Of a stretch of 64,000 nucleotides of DNA, positions 41,923 through 48,200 are shown one piece after another. Below the pieces are notes generated by a model, which had not been told where the DNA came from, did not search any database, and saw only the letters and a list, made by a program, of their open reading frames with translations. Position numbers and translations under genes: made by a program. This DNA is from an uncultured Flavobacteriaceae bacterium (GTDB lineage: Bacteria > Bacteroidota > Bacteroidia > Flavobacteriales > Flavobacteriaceae), in the NCBI GenBank assembly GCA_943788165.1, contig CALSPF010000003.1, forward strand, positions 124,001 through 188,000, given 5' to 3'. Position 1 is the stretch's first letter; each line of letters starts with the position of its first letter.

Positions 41923-42999
41923 TTAAAATACTTCTCCCGCCTCCTTCAACTTTTCTGTATTTTGATACAGTTGCAATTCATCGATAAGTTTGGCAATATC
42001 TCCGTTAATAATATTTTGAAGATCATAAAGGGTTAATCCAATTCGATGATCTGTTACCCGTCCTTGCGGATAATTATAGGTGCGGATCTTGGCAGAACGA
42101 TCGCCCGAAGAAACCAAAGAATTACGCTTTTCAGCATCTGCCTCCAACTTCTTGGATAATTCTAATTCGTATAAACGAGAACGCAAAACTTTCAATGCTT
42201 TATCCTTGTTCTTGTGTTGTGATTTTTGATCTTGACACTGCGCCACAATTCCGGTTGGTTCGTGCGTTAAACGAACGGCCGAATAGGTTGTATTGACCGA
42301 TTGTCCACCAGGCCCCGAAGAACAGAAGTAATCTACACGAACATCATTCATATCTACTTCAACATCAAATTCTTCTGCTTCTGGTAAAACCATTACCGTA
42401 GCTGCTGATGTATGCACACGTCCTTGCGTTTCTGTTTGCGGCACACGCTGAACACGATGCACACCAGATTCAAACTTCATTGTTCCATATACTTCCTCTC
42501 CAGAAACTTCAAAGATAATTTCCTTAAATCCTCCTGCAGTACCCTCACTACTGTCAACTAGGCTGGCATTCCAACCGCGGTCAGAGCAATATTTAGTATA
42601 CATGCGATAGAGATCTCCTGCAAAAATACTCGCTTCATCTCCACCAGTTCCAGCACGAATTTCAACCACAATATTTTTAGCATCTTCCGGGTCTTTTGGA
42701 ATCAACATGAATTTGATATCCTCCTCCAAAGTTGGCAATTGTTCTTTTGCATCTTCTAGCTGCATTTTCGCCATTTCAACCATTTCATCGTCACTTCCAT
42801 CTTTTATGATTTCCATGGCTTCTTCTTGATTGGATAAAAGTTCCTTGTATACTTTTGACTTTTCCATCAATTTACTCAAGTCTTTGTACTCTTTGTTCAA
42901 TTGTACATAACGCTTCTGATCCGAAATAATATCGGGTTGGATAATTAAATCGGAAACTTCATCGAAGCGTTGTTGTATGATTTGTAATTTTTCTAACAT
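41923..42999 (-). CDS. prfA: Peptide chain release factor 1
   Basis: A 358-residue class I release factor recognising UAA and UAG. The codon-recognition PxT-type region and the catalytic GGQ ([12 protein letters not shown]) are present; [16 protein letters not shown] closes domain 2/4. No internal frameshift site, as expected for RF1. Confidence 0.95.
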
Positions 43000-43051: not shown

Positions 43052-44512
43052 CTATTGATCCAAAACAAATTTGAAAGAAGTCGATACAATAAAGGACGAT
43101 AGACCGTCACTTCTTGTATAATGCTGTGCGCGTAGCTGAGCGGATTTAAGCCCAAAATCAACTATTTTTAACTGAGAAAGAACAGATCGATAACTAAGAG
43201 ATGCTCCCCATTGATGGCTAGAAAAATCAGACAAATCATAGTCAGAAGTGTAAAACTCTTGAGAGGATAGGTGGGTGTTGTAAGGGCCAAAATAATCGGC
43301 TGCAGTTTGATCATAGTAGCGATAAATAGGCGTGAATTTCCAAGATAAATTGAAACGGATTGGGAGTTCAAATTGCAGTGTTTTGGATTGAATCCCCCAG
43401 TCATCACTATAATAACGTGCATAGGAACGCAACACAAGATATTCACTGATATAATAATTCAAGCGACCTCCAACTGGTATCTTTAAACGCTGGGAAGGCA
43501 AACGCTCAACATCATCTGCTAAATGAAAGACATCTATGTTTTCGAAGGAAGTATACTGAGGAATACTTCGAAAATTACCAATGTAAAAATTCTCTCGGTC
43601 TTGAAAATAGACGCGTTGCAAGGGGTTAGACAATAAGCCCTGTTGAACAACTAGATCGGCAAAAATAGCCCCTTGCAATTTTGGGCTAAGAATCTGAGAT
43701 AGACCAAGGCTAAATGCGAAAGAGTTTCGATTAACAGCCGAATAGGAAAAGAAATTTTCAGGCAGGTAACCGGCTACACTATTTCCCTGATCATCCGTTA
43801 TACTAACGCCTAAAAAATAGGAATCTGGATTATATAAAAACGTTTCTTGAAAAAGTTCATACTCGTGCAACTCAGTAGGTATGATAGGGTTCCAGCGATC
43901 GATGTAAACCTGTCCTTTTAGTGAAAGCTCGGTGTTTTTTTCATTCCATAATTGGGCAAAAGAAACCCCAAAATTCAATGAGGAATAATCGTATTCAATG
44001 GAACCTCCAACATTTACACCCCAGTATTGATCCCTATTATCGCTTGCTTTTTGATAACCAATATTTACCGTAGTTAAAACATCTTTTGCAGAAGCGCCGG
44101 TGGACGCCACCCACGGGGAGCCTTTGGGCGAACCAAAAGAAGATCCATTACCACGTGGTGTTTCTTCTTCATCTCCATTAGTTGATGCGCCAGATTGATT
44201 GAATGGATTCCCATTACTTGAACTGGCCGAAGTGTAGGCGGAGATGCCAACATCAGCTGTCAAAATAGCATCCTCATTCAAAGGCATTCGCACTACAATA
44301 GTGGGAGCATAATTGGTTAAATATTCATTCCCGATTCCGCCGCTAACCGCAGCATGAGTTCCCTCTTGCTCATAATAGCTCATCAAGATGTCCACCTCAA
44401 CGCTTTCCAAAATCTTTTTCTTGAATTGGGTCAATGAATCTATTGTCTGAGCGGAAACAATTCCACAAAGCAAAAAAAAGAAAAGCAAAAAATAAGGCTT
44501 AATTACATCCAC
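43052..44512 (-). CDS. DUF3570 outer-membrane barrel protein
   Basis: About 486 residues from GTG at 44512, which gives a signal peptide (PYFLLFFFLLCGIVSAQ). Earlier in-frame starts would place 30 atypical residues before it. DUF3570 members are predicted beta barrels; here alternating aromatic strands run to the end (SSFIVSTSFKFVLDQ). A disordered Ser/Gly/Asn loop lies near residues 110-160. Last gene of the lipoprotein-thioredoxin-ApbE-DUF4266 cassette; its start overlaps the end of the DUF4266 gene. Role unknown. Confidence 0.82.
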   Translation of the reverse strand: MDVIKPYFLLFFFLLCGIVSAQTIDSLTQFKKKILESVEVDILMSYYEQEGTHAAVSGGIGNEYLTNYAPTIVVRMPLNEDAILTADVGISAYTSASSSNGNPFNQSGASTNGDEEETPRGNGSSFGSPKGSPWVASTGASAKDVLTTVNIGYQKASDNRDQYWGVNVGGSIEYDYSSLNFGVSFAQLWNEKNTELSLKGQVYIDRWNPIIPTELHEYELFQETFLYNPDSYFLGVSITDDQGNSVAGYLPENFFSYSAVNRNSFAFSLGLSQILSPKLQGAIFADLVVQQGLLSNPLQRVYFQDRENFYIGNFRSIPQYTSFENIDVFHLADDVERLPSQRLKIPVGGRLNYYISEYLVLRSYARYYSDDWGIQSKTLQFELPIRFNLSWKFTPIYRYYDQTAADYFGPYNTHLSSQEFYTSDYDLSDFSSHQWGASLSYRSVLSQLKIVDFGLKSAQLRAQHYTRSDGLSSFIVSTSFKFVLDQ

Positions 44513-44714
44513 AACCGCCTCCCGTTTTACCTCCGTTTGCTCCAGCTGCAGCTTCACGGTATATTTGAAAATTAGTTTCAAAACGCTCACAATCGACAGC
44601 ACTCAACAGCATATCTTCATCGTTTATGGCAATTTTATTGTACTCTTTCACAACAGTACATGAGACAGTACACATTAACATCAGCAAGAGAAATATTCCA
44701 TTAATTGATTTCAT
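44499..44714 (-). CDS. DUF4266 small lipoprotein
   Basis: A 71-residue lipoprotein: hydrophobic start with lipobox TVSC (C19), a short middle that matches DUF4266, and a striking C-terminus AAAGANGGKTGGGCGCN. The Gly-Gly-Cys-Gly-Cys-Asn ending is, to my knowledge, a family hallmark; paired cysteines could bind a metal or be a modification site. Overlaps ApbE upstream (14 bases) and the DUF3570 gene downstream. Confidence 0.85.
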   Translation of the reverse strand: MKSINGIFLLLMLMCTVSCTVVKEYNKIAINDEDMLLSAVDCERFETNFQIYREAAAGANGGKTGGGCGCN

Positions 44715-45690
44715 CTACAGCAATATTTTTTGAAGTAATTATCTTTCCTTTATCATTTATCATCAAGGCTTCAACATTAGGTAGTTGATCGATAAAATTA
44801 ATCCCTGTCTCCGTTCCCATGACAAAGAGTGCGGTTGCCAAAGCATCGGCTAATTCTGCTTTGGGTGCAAAGACAGTACAACTCACCACACCCTGACTTG
44901 GGTAGCCAGTTTTGGGGTTAATAATATGTCCATAACGCTTACCCTCCATTAATAAGAATCGCTCATAATCGCCTGAGGTAACCACGGCAGTATTGTTTAG
45001 CGGAAACCATGAAAATACCTTGTTTTTGTTTAAGGGGTTTACAAGTCCTATTTGCCAAGATGTTCCGTCGGGTTGTGTTCCCCATGCAGACATATCTCCC
45101 GAAGCATTGACAATTCCAGCTTTCACTCCATTTTCCAGAAGCATAGCCTTTACACGGTCAGCGGCATAGCCTTTGCCAATGGCGCCAAATCCAATTTTCA
45201 TGCCTTTCTCAGGGAGGAACACGGTTTGTTTTTTAGCATCCATCATAATTTTATCAAAACCAATTTTGGCTACCGATGCATGAACCATGGTTGCTGAAGG
45301 CGGCTGTATTTCCTCTCCAGTAAATGACCATAGCTTATCAACCGAGGCATAGGAAAGATCAAAAGCGCCATCGGTTAAACGAGCTATAGCATTGGCTCGC
45401 GCTATCAAATCAAACAATTCTTTGGAAACAATTTGCGGACGAATACCCGCCATTCTATTCACCATTGAAGTTTGTGAATTTTTGTCCCAAGAGGAAATTA
45501 AACGCTCAATGCGATCAATTTCTGCAGTACTCTCATCGATCAATTGCTGCCCATGAATGGGACTCTCGTGCACCAATGTAATCTCAAAAGAAGAGCCCAT
45601 TTTTTCAAATTTACGCTGAATTACTTCTTGCGCATATCCGTCATTGACGAGCAAAACAGTAATCACCAATAAGATGTAAATCTGCTTCAT
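44701..45690 (-). CDS. apbE: ApbE FAD:protein FMN transferase
   Basis: A 329-residue exported flavin transferase that attaches FMN to Thr/Ser of target proteins outside the cytoplasm. Signal peptide 1-20 (ending NDGYAQ). Seen: MGSSFEITLVH, RLISSWDKNSQTSMVN, GFGAIGKGYAADRV, NASGDMSAWG and the metal/FAD region TSGDYERFLLMEGKRYGHIINPKTG. Overlaps the thioredoxin gene by 4 bases. No classical flavinylation motif (DgxSGAT type) was seen in its neighbours, so the substrate is unclear. Confidence 0.93.
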   Translation of the reverse strand: MKQIYILLVITVLLVNDGYAQEVIQRKFEKMGSSFEITLVHESPIHGQQLIDESTAEIDRIERLISSWDKNSQTSMVNRMAGIRPQIVSKELFDLIARANAIARLTDGAFDLSYASVDKLWSFTGEEIQPPSATMVHASVAKIGFDKIMMDAKKQTVFLPEKGMKIGFGAIGKGYAADRVKAMLLENGVKAGIVNASGDMSAWGTQPDGTSWQIGLVNPLNKNKVFSWFPLNNTAVVTSGDYERFLLMEGKRYGHIINPKTGYPSQGVVSCTVFAPKAELADALATALFVMGTETGINFIDQLPNVEALMINDKGKIITSKNIAVDEIN

Positions 45691-46118
45691 TTAAAATCAT
45701 TTATTTTTTCAATATAGTTGCTAACTGAAATTTTCTCATAGGCAAAAGTACCAAATTGCTTTTGCAAAGGAGACAGTACCACCACCCAAGGAAAGTAACC
45801 TTTGGCATTATAAACCTCTGCTAATGCTGCATTGGCTTCTTGCAATGGCGGAGGCAATTTATTTTTTTTCCGCTTGGGAAAATCTGCACGATAGAGAATT
45901 AATTCCTCATTGGCATAGTTTATAAAAATTTCATCCTGCCATACTTCTTTTTCTAATTTAATACATGGAATACACCAGTCGGAACCAGAAAAAACCAAAA
46001 GTATTTTCTTATTTTCTGCTCTAGCTTTTTGTTTGGCATCATTCCAGGTTATCTCCCAATTTTGGGCACTTAGGGAAACACTAAACAGAAAAAGAATAAA
46101 TATTATTCCTTGTTTCAT
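45687..46118 (-). CDS. Exported thioredoxin-like protein
   Basis: A 143-residue periplasmic thioredoxin-fold protein. Signal peptide ends SLSAQN; the redox motif is SDWCIPCIKLEKEVW (C-x2-C), like the DUF255/thioredoxin_7 group. Overlaps genes on both sides by 4 bases, so it is translated together with the lipoprotein and ApbE. Likely reduces a disulfide in another cassette protein; inference. Confidence 0.9.
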   Translation of the reverse strand: MKQGIIFILFLFSVSLSAQNWEITWNDAKQKARAENKKILLVFSGSDWCIPCIKLEKEVWQDEIFINYANEELILYRADFPKRKKNKLPPPLQEANAALAEVYNAKGYFPWVVVLSPLQKQFGTFAYEKISVSNYIEKINDFK

Positions 46119-46945
46119 TGGGCTGTTCTTCTATCATAGGCAAAACCACCCTGTTTTTTCATAGCCCAAGAAGTTATTTTAATTTCAATATAGATGTCGT
46201 CTTCAATCAGATGAAGCACCATGGGAACACCCACAGCATTTGGTGGTTTCTGTCCTGGAGCTGCATTTCTAAAAGAAGTAAATGTTAAGTCGTCAATGGT
46301 TGCATAAGTTCCTTGTGCCCAAGCTGTACCTGCCGGACTTGTACTGCCGGAAGCTGTACTCTCACTGACAATATTATAAATTTGTCCCTGACCGTCTGGT
46401 GTATTATTTCCGCGGGTAATCCAAACGAGATCTGTTATTCGATCTTGGTTGACTTCGTCGTTTGGGTCACCACCGTTGGGTTTACTAAAGGTAATAATAG
46501 CCCCTTCCCATAAGTTTCGACTGGATCCTGTATTTTCATCCACATCTGTTAGTGTAATGGTGATCGTTGCGTCATCTGTACTTCCTCCAGAACTGGCACG
46601 AACCACTGCTGTTAAGGTTGATTGTGTTTCGAAATCAAATAAACTAGCATTAGCGACAGTGAGCTCTCCAGTACTCGCATTGATGGCTATAGCACCAGCT
46701 AAACTTTGAGAAGTGATCGCAAAACTAACTGACCCAGAACTTGCATTGGCTTGCACAGTTCCAAGAACAGAACCCGCAGCTGGATTTTCTGCTATGGTTA
46801 CCGAAAAATCACTAGCAGTGATGGTTATCGTTGGACTAGGATTTGGAGTTGGATAATCACTCCCTCCTCCGTCTTCACCTTTACCACATTGCAACACTAA
46901 AAGTGACAACAACAGTATAACGATAGAGCTAATTAACTTCTTCAT
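46115..46945 (-). CDS. Cadherin-like lipoprotein
   Basis: A 276-residue surface or periplasmic lipoprotein: lipobox LVLQC with the acylated Cys at 20, a Gly/Pro/Ser linker, then a cadherin-type domain (about 38-140) with FSVTIAENPAAGSVLGTV, INASTGELTVAN and TITITLTDVDEN calcium-site residues. The last 130 residues form a separate domain of unknown type (NLWEGAIITFSKPNGGDPNDE to IKITSWAMKKQGGF). First gene of the cassette. Confidence 0.8.
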   Translation of the reverse strand: MKKLISSIVILLLSLLVLQCGKGEDGGGSDYPTPNPSPTITITASDFSVTIAENPAAGSVLGTVQANASSGSVSFAITSQSLAGAIAINASTGELTVANASLFDFETQSTLTAVVRASSGGSTDDATITITLTDVDENTGSSRNLWEGAIITFSKPNGGDPNDEVNQDRITDLVWITRGNNTPDGQGQIYNIVSESTASGSTSPAGTAWAQGTYATIDDLTFTSFRNAAPGQKPPNAVGVPMVLHLIEDDIYIEIKITSWAMKKQGGFAYDRRTAQ

Positions 46946-47015: not shown

Positions 47016-48200
47016 CTAATAAACAAAATCACCATGATCACTTTTAATGGTCAATTGCTTTGACTCTGACACTTCGACACGGCCTATTATTTGCGCATCT
47101 ACACCGAAAGATTTACTGATTTTAACAATTTCCTCAGCACTTGAAGCTGGAACATAGAGTTCCATGCGGTGCCCCATATTGAAGACTTCGTACATTTCTT
47201 TCCAACTCGTTCCAGATTCTTCTTGAATCATTTTAAACAAGGGAGGCGTTGGAAAAAGATTGTCTTTAATTACGTGAACACTATCGACAAAGTGCAATAC
47301 TTTGGTCTGCGCTCCTCCACTACAATGGACCATACCGTGGATTTGGGAACGATCGATGGAATTGAATATTTTTTGAATGATTGGCGCGTAGGTTCGCGTA
47401 GGCGAAAGGACCATTTTCCCTGCATTGAGCGGGGCACCTTCTACTTCATCGGTTAAGGCCTTAGAGCCAGAGTAAATCAGGTCTTTAGGAACACACGCAT
47501 CAAAGGTTTCTGGGAATTTGTCTTTAACAGAAGCATTGAACACATCATGACGGGCAGAGGTTAGTCCGTTACTCCCCATACCCCCATTATATTCGGACTC
47601 GTAATTTGCTTGCCCAAAAGAGGCCAAGCCAACGATCATGTCTCCTGCTTGAATATTGGCATTATTGATTATCTCAGAACGTTTCATCCGTGCAACCACC
47701 GTCGAATCCACAATAATGGTTTGTACCAAATCGCCAACGTCTGCTGTTTCTCCGCCAGTACTTTTAATGGAAACACCATGCTCAGCCAAATCGTTGATCA
47801 ATTCTTCGGTTCCGTTAATAATAGCGGCCAGTACCTCTCCAGGAATACGTTGCTTATTTCGTCCAATGGTTGAGGAAAGTAGAATATTTTCTGTAGCACC
47901 AACACATAAAAGGTCATCGATATTCATGATCAAAGCGTCTTGCGCAATGCCTTTCCAAACTGTTAGATCACCGGTTTCCTTCCAATAGGCATAGGCCAAA
48001 GAGGACTTTGTTCCTGCGCCATCAGCATGCATAACGATACAGTGATCTTCACTACCGGTTAAATAGTCTGGAACAATTTTACAAAAAGCCTTGGGGAATA
48101 ATCCTTTATCGATATTCTTTATAGCATTGTGCACATCTTCTTTCTGGGCTGAAACTCCTCGAAGACGATACCGATCACTTGACGCTGTACTCATGGACAA
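47016..48200 (-). CDS. purM: AIR synthase PurM
   Basis: A 394-residue PurM/ThiL-fold enzyme, phosphoribosylformylglycinamidine cyclo-ligase, in the divergent form used by Bacteroidota. ATP-site motif HADGAGTKSSLAY, then DALIMNIDDLLCVGA and IKSTGGETADVGD. C-terminal domain MEVFNMGHRMELYV. Catalyses the fifth step of purine synthesis. Separated from prfA-pyrF by the ApbE cassette. Confidence 0.85.
   Translation of the reverse strand: MSMSTASSDRYRLRGVSAQKEDVHNAIKNIDKGLFPKAFCKIVPDYLTGSEDHCIVMHADGAGTKSSLAYAYWKETGDLTVWKGIAQDALIMNIDDLLCVGATENILLSSTIGRNKQRIPGEVLAAIINGTEELINDLAEHGVSIKSTGGETADVGDLVQTIIVDSTVVARMKRSEIINNANIQAGDMIVGLASFGQANYESEYNGGMGSNGLTSARHDVFNASVKDKFPETFDACVPKDLIYSGSKALTDEVEGAPLNAGKMVLSPTRTYAPIIQKIFNSIDRSQIHGMVHCSGGAQTKVLHFVDSVHVIKDNLFPTPPLFKMIQEESGTSWKEMYEVFNMGHRMELYVPASSAEEIVKISKSFGVDAQIIGRVEVSESKQLTIKSDHGDFVY

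Follow-up and report, generated by a model that had tools for sequence, protein, structure and literature searches.

The question raised by this locus is which protein receives the flavin of an exported ApbE that is encoded among four other envelope genes, and what such a cassette does. In the window, by which we mean the whole 64,000-nucleotide stretch of DNA of an uncultured Flavobacteriaceae bacterium that was analysed, the five genes lie on the minus strand at 43052-46945, between a purM-like gene and prfA (Table 1). Both the open reading frames of the window and the Pfam families of the products agree with this arrangement, which had been described in an earlier note on the same DNA. That note also took the genes for one operon, and this is borne out by their common strand and by overlaps of 4 to 14 nucleotides: 4 between the lipoprotein and thioredoxin genes, 4 between the thioredoxin gene and apbE, and 14 between apbE and the DUF4266 gene. 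The overlap of the DUF4266 and DUF3570 genes is 14 nucleotides, given a DUF3570 start at GTG 44512, the presumed start codon, which has a GGAGG on its 5' side.

Table 1 Features of the cassette and its flanking genes. Positions are those of the window; residue numbers refer to the encoded proteins.
Feature	Position	Strand	Match or conservation
purM-like gene	47016-48200		
Lipoprotein with cadherin domain and separate C-terminal domain; accessory	46115..46945	-	
Exported thioredoxin-like protein, active site SDWCIPC	45687..46118	-	Thioredoxin_7 PF13899, 1.8e-14
CIPC redox motif of thioredoxin	45963..45974	-	
ApbE, FAD:protein FMN transferase with signal peptide	44701..45690	-	PF02424, 6.2e-82
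DUF4266 small lipoprotein, 71 aa, lipobox C19, C-terminal CGCN	44499..44714	-	PF14086, 3.8e-17
Cys-Gly-Cys of DUF4266 tail, residues 68-70	44505..44513	-	
DUF3570 outer-membrane barrel, 486 aa from GTG 44512; predicted ApbE substrate	43052..44512	-	PF12094, 1.1e-35
Flavinylation site 1, TSAS, residues 94-97, acceptor S97	44222..44233	-	Ser 118/118
Predicted third flavinylation site, SGAS, residues 107-110, hypervariable loop	44183..44194	-	54/60 long loops
Flavinylation site 2, TGAS, residues 138-141, acceptor S141	44090..44101	-	Ser 116/118
prfA	41923-42999		

The class was sampled with 395 genomes, of which 46 have DUF3570. The comparison of loci covered 118 homologous Bacteroidia-type loci, obtained from the class survey and from 80 named loci, mostly of Flavobacteriaceae, and the order Trx-ApbE-DUF4266-DUF3570 is kept in 111 of them. 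Because this four-gene order is conserved, the cassette is not a product of chance. The five genes had been expected to occur together in other genomes; this holds for these four and fails for the fifth, the lipoprotein gene. The location between purM and prfA is common to two close marine Flavobacteriaceae MAGs and to several Flagellimonas/Allomuricauda. At one locus (L057, G114:C18) DUF3570 and the thioredoxin are found without adjoining ApbE or DUF4266, and the sites of that DUF3570 read TSAS (site 1) and ASRPS (site 2). In distant genomes of the same phylum (L076-L105) DUF3570 is multiplied, a single genome having as many as 9 matches, and the genes usually stand in the order DUF4266-DUF3570-ApbE.

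Clusters of ApbE, DUF3570, a PF13899 thioredoxin and DUF4266, often with DsbD and sometimes with VIT1, have been published, and the DUF3570 protein of Chlorobium luteolum is flavinylated by its own ApbE at the serines of two [S/T]GA[S/T] motifs (Meheust et al., eLife 2021, PMC8238504). That study has 285 DsbD clusters in all, and 316 clusters without DsbD (PMC8238504). The four genes Trx-ApbE-DUF4266-DUF3570 of the window are a member of this DUF3570/DsbD-type flavinylation system: ApbE and DUF3570 (profile matches in Table 1), the PF13899 thioredoxin and a DUF4266 with CXC end stand in one cluster, and DUF3570 has two acceptor-serine sites as well as two [S/T]GA[S/T] motifs, SGAS at 107-110 and TGAS at 138-141. 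DsbD, an optional feature of the published system, is absent beside the window cluster. The window differs from that system in that neither DsbD nor VIT1 adjoins, in having TSAS instead of [S/T]GA[S/T] at site 1, in an inserted loop that carries a third [ST]GAS site, and in the added cadherin lipoprotein. It is therefore a Flavobacteriaceae variant of a core operon that is already known, published but poorly understood. The earlier note, which knew of no defined role for the set and saw no classical flavinylation motif in it, has to be corrected on both points, as the four-gene set is described in PMC8238504 and DUF3570 contains SGAS and TGAS in addition to a relaxed TSAS at the first site; its proposal of an envelope redox role is supported. 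Among the papers searched, PMC8238504 alone names DUF3570 or DUF4266. We consider it fairly probable that the four genes encode a flavin electron-transfer system in which electrons would pass from DsbD, the thioredoxin and the CGC tail to surface flavins and on to an external metal. In the organism of the window we infer the flavinylation, the side of the membrane and the acceptor.

DUF3570, which belongs to a substrate class demonstrated in the literature, is the predicted ApbE substrate in the cassette. Among the Bacteroidia-type proteins site 1 reads [TS]SAS almost without exception (Ser in 118 of 118) and site 2 mostly SGAS (Ser in 116 of 118), and the acceptor serines are among the 12 invariant columns of an alignment of 40 DUF3570 sequences. 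In the distant same-phylum set, which judging from its C. luteolum-like motifs probably represents Chlorobia, site 1 is TGAS or SGAS in 31/31, and site 2 has Ser in all 25 alignable sequences, with SGAS in all but one of the 25. The TSAS of the window aligns with the first motif of this set, and in all 118 Bacteroidia-type proteins the canonical Gly of site 1 is replaced by Ser. Since replacing the motif Gly with Ala lowers flavinylation only to about half (review, PMC12052999), the relaxed [TS]SAS of site 1 is plausible as a candidate flavinylation site. A demonstration of FMN attachment to any Bacteroidia DUF3570 was not found in the papers searched.

Between sites 1 and 2 there is an insert that is hypervariable and rich in Ser, Gly and Asp. 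A further [ST]GA[ST] motif occurs in 54 of the 60 inserts of at least 23 residues, compared to 1.4 expected and a maximum of 7 in 500 composition-preserving shuffles, where the loci share ancestry and the independent third-site events are thus fewer than 54 of 60 implies. Identity of the loop outside the motif is 32%, and the whole proteins average 58%. These observations lead us to read the motif as a likely third site, a new point, and the conservation of the motif would reflect selection for a third flavin.

An AlphaFold2 model of DUF3570 was built from 40 sequences (pLDDT 81.7, pTM 0.79). The model is a closed barrel that matches solved outer-membrane barrels along the chain, which supports the assignment of DUF3570 as a barrel in the earlier note; a sequence search of DUF3570 against solved structures gave no match. 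The best PDB match is the PgaA barrel 4y25 (Z 21.5, rmsd 3.1, residues 35-485). PgaA, FadL and OmpG share the barrel fold, PgaA over the whole DUF3570 chain, but have an identity to DUF3570 of about 13% at most, and to our knowledge they carry no comparable flavin motifs. All three flavin sites fall in the model on a disordered loop, residues 97-142, between strands 3 and 4. This loop is on the side of the other long loops, away from both termini and from the short turns (80-81, 157-161, 190-193, 275-278 and 355-358). Outer-membrane barrels usually have their long loops on the cell exterior. The flavin loop is thus probably extracellular as modelled, a further new point. It is rather unlikely, in our judgement, that the loop instead points into the periplasm or sits in the lumen of the barrel, the barrel then being a conduit and not a surface reductase; the loop has a pLDDT below 50 and could fold inward, but the positions of the short turns and the end-to-end PgaA alignment place it externally, and its middle is hypervariable and Asp-rich as in many surface loops.

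The preferred flavin electron-transfer reading also needs a donor. DUF4266 ends in CGCN in 137 of 137 homologues, which supports the view of the earlier note that it is an acylated, CGC-tailed redox partner, and SDWCxxC is kept in nearly all homologues of the thioredoxin. Mature DUF3570 is without cysteine in 124 of 149 sequences, so that electrons from thiols would need to go straight to the flavin, and for this transfer DUF4266 would offer a natural shuttle in its mobile CGC tail. A comparable arrangement, by analogy, may be seen in the Erv/Ero sulfhydryl oxidases, where a mobile CxC serves as shuttle disulfide. The likeness would lie in a flavin that has a flexible Cys-Gly-Cys tail beside it, but there is no homology and the FAD is not covalent, and we do not claim that the cassette belongs with these enzymes. 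No paper was found in a literature search that combined all terms for such a Cys-Gly-Cys shuttle. The genome has one DsbD, at C3:5006, on the same contig as the cassette (C3:167187) and about 160 kb apart from it; among the 118 loci, L074 alone has a full-length relative of this DsbD.

The same thiol chemistry could be used in another direction. In a reverse or repair pathway the DUF3570 flavins would oxidise or reduce envelope thiols, in an Erv/Ero-like or repair fashion, with no extracellular acceptor. The chemistry of the thioredoxin and the CGC tail is indeed thiol-based, and the thioredoxin resembles the DsbH disulfide reductase (NCBIfam DsbH-like, 3.6e-23, below the cut-off), but flavins on the external loop of a barrel would be an unusual arrangement for an enzyme that carries out repair in the periplasm, and the DsbD of many published clusters points to an outward flow of electrons. 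We therefore regard this pathway as unlikely, slightly more so than an inward-facing loop.

That ApbE acts within the cassette, as in the earlier note, is supported. The genome contains a complete nqrA-F operon with an ApbE of its own on another contig than the cassette; therefore the cassette ApbE is dedicated, and an ApbE modifying only an Nqr or Rnf protein elsewhere, which the note had considered, is rejected. Flavinylation in Nqr/Rnf (NqrC, FMN_bind) is alike in using ApbE and FMN on Ser/Thr, but the window cassette has no FMN_bind domain. Neither an FMN_bind nor an NqrB/RnfD subunit was found in the cassette, and both FMN_bind matches of the genome are on other contigs. A 179-aa FMN_bind protein outside nqr (G000:C1:651658) has no adjoining ApbE and no NCBIfam match.

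Neighbours of the cassette in relatives bear on the acceptor. Directly 5' of the thioredoxin gene, 19 of the 118 loci have a gene for a Rieske [2Fe-2S] lipoprotein; in the class survey it is upstream in 10 of 39 loci, from four families, and C-x-H...C-x2-H is present in 18 of the 19 proteins. This lipoprotein has a Tat-like N-terminus and fills the slot of the window's cadherin lipoprotein (L170:3841-4281, L043:10606-11046, L058, L062 and others). CusA/CzcA-type RND genes are found in 27 of the 118 neighbourhoods, and cop/cus-like (metal-sensing) two-component genes in at least 33. Seven class-survey genomes (G221, G247, G021, G380, G058, G200, G231) have an above-cut-off CusA/CzcA match less than 10 kb from the cassette, compared to about 0.5 by chance, our own estimate from roughly 3 genes per 4.7 Mb genome and not from a simulation. 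The Rieske partner gene and the link to heavy-metal export genes are new points; the main text of PMC8238504 makes no mention of barrel topology or of Rieske or heavy-metal RND/efflux associations. No gene in the genome of the window matches CusA/CzcA at E 1e-100, and the metal link would thus come from relatives only. In many Flavobacterium the cassette is followed by heavy-metal two-component and CusA/CzcA RND genes, and in other families it is preceded by RND and adaptor genes; loci with such neighbours include L115:7404-13389, L045:828-6297, L049, L056, L178 and L185.

The third alternative, that of the earlier note, in which DUF4266 either receives the modification or carries metal, with the thioredoxin keeping it reduced before it is passed to a flavin-free barrel, is improbable: DUF4266 is tiny, acylated and uniformly CGCN-ended and metal efflux genes flank many loci, but the published substrate is DUF3570, with nearly invariant acceptor serines, and the DUF4266 tail (AAGANGGK in the window, mostly SGAN elsewhere) has at the FMN acceptor position an Asn, without hydroxyl. 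DUF4266 is accordingly rejected as an FMN substrate; its CGC tail may bind metal.

For the preferred flavin electron-transfer system the steps would be as follows. ApbE would attach FMN to DUF3570 serines in the periplasm, before the barrel folds in the outer membrane, and the folded barrel, of about 16 strands in the model, would bear FMN at two or three positions of its second external loop. Electrons would pass from DsbD in the inner membrane to the thioredoxin (SDWCIPC) and then to DUF4266. The flexible CGC tail of this lipoprotein would act as the shuttle disulfide that reduces the flavins, because mature DUF3570 is almost always cysteine-free. The flavins would in turn hand the electrons to an acceptor outside the cell. 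The neighbours in relatives suggest that this acceptor is most likely a metal ion, either Fe(III) or Cu or another heavy metal. The third site, the external-loop topology, the Rieske partner and the heavy-metal neighbourhood together point to reduction of an external metal. A more specific proposal, which we make tentatively, is a surface reductase in which an external Asp-rich barrel loop with three covalent FMNs, fed by the thioredoxin and the CGC-tailed lipoprotein (in relatives also by the Rieske lipoprotein), would reduce metals of the Fe(III)/Cu(II) type outside the cell without cytochromes. This bears on the question of electron transfer across the outer membrane in bacteria that lack multiheme cytochromes. 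Should the flavin loop be external, an operon widespread in Bacteroidia would give electrons a path to the cell surface that needs no cytochromes, and protein flavinylation would be tied to heavy-metal handling.

The fifth gene stands apart from this system. Pfam gives one cadherin domain in its product, which at 27.8 bits falls slightly short of the cut-off of 28.8, but residues 37-136 of the model clearly have a cadherin fold (Z 13.7). Among the loci surveyed outside the window, the lipoprotein adjoins the thioredoxin only in G648, where the C-terminal domain alone is present; in a same-genus genome it lies before purM, and in G895 it is at the purM-prfA site where the cassette is absent. 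The lipoprotein is thus not conserved with the other four genes and is rejected as a fifth core gene, so that the five-gene set of the earlier note is not a unit; the lipoprotein is a local addition to the cassette. Besides the lipoprotein, the purM-prfA site of G895 (L189:1486-3433) has a YceI protein and a membrane-like protein of 199 aa. For the C-terminal domain (residues 140-274) there was no strong Pfam or NCBIfam match, and in a fold search with the whole model the matches were filled by the cadherin domain. This domain of about 135 aa, encoded at 46118-46525, is widespread in exported proteins of Flavobacteriaceae, with the pattern FTSWSxGxxGGFxYERS.
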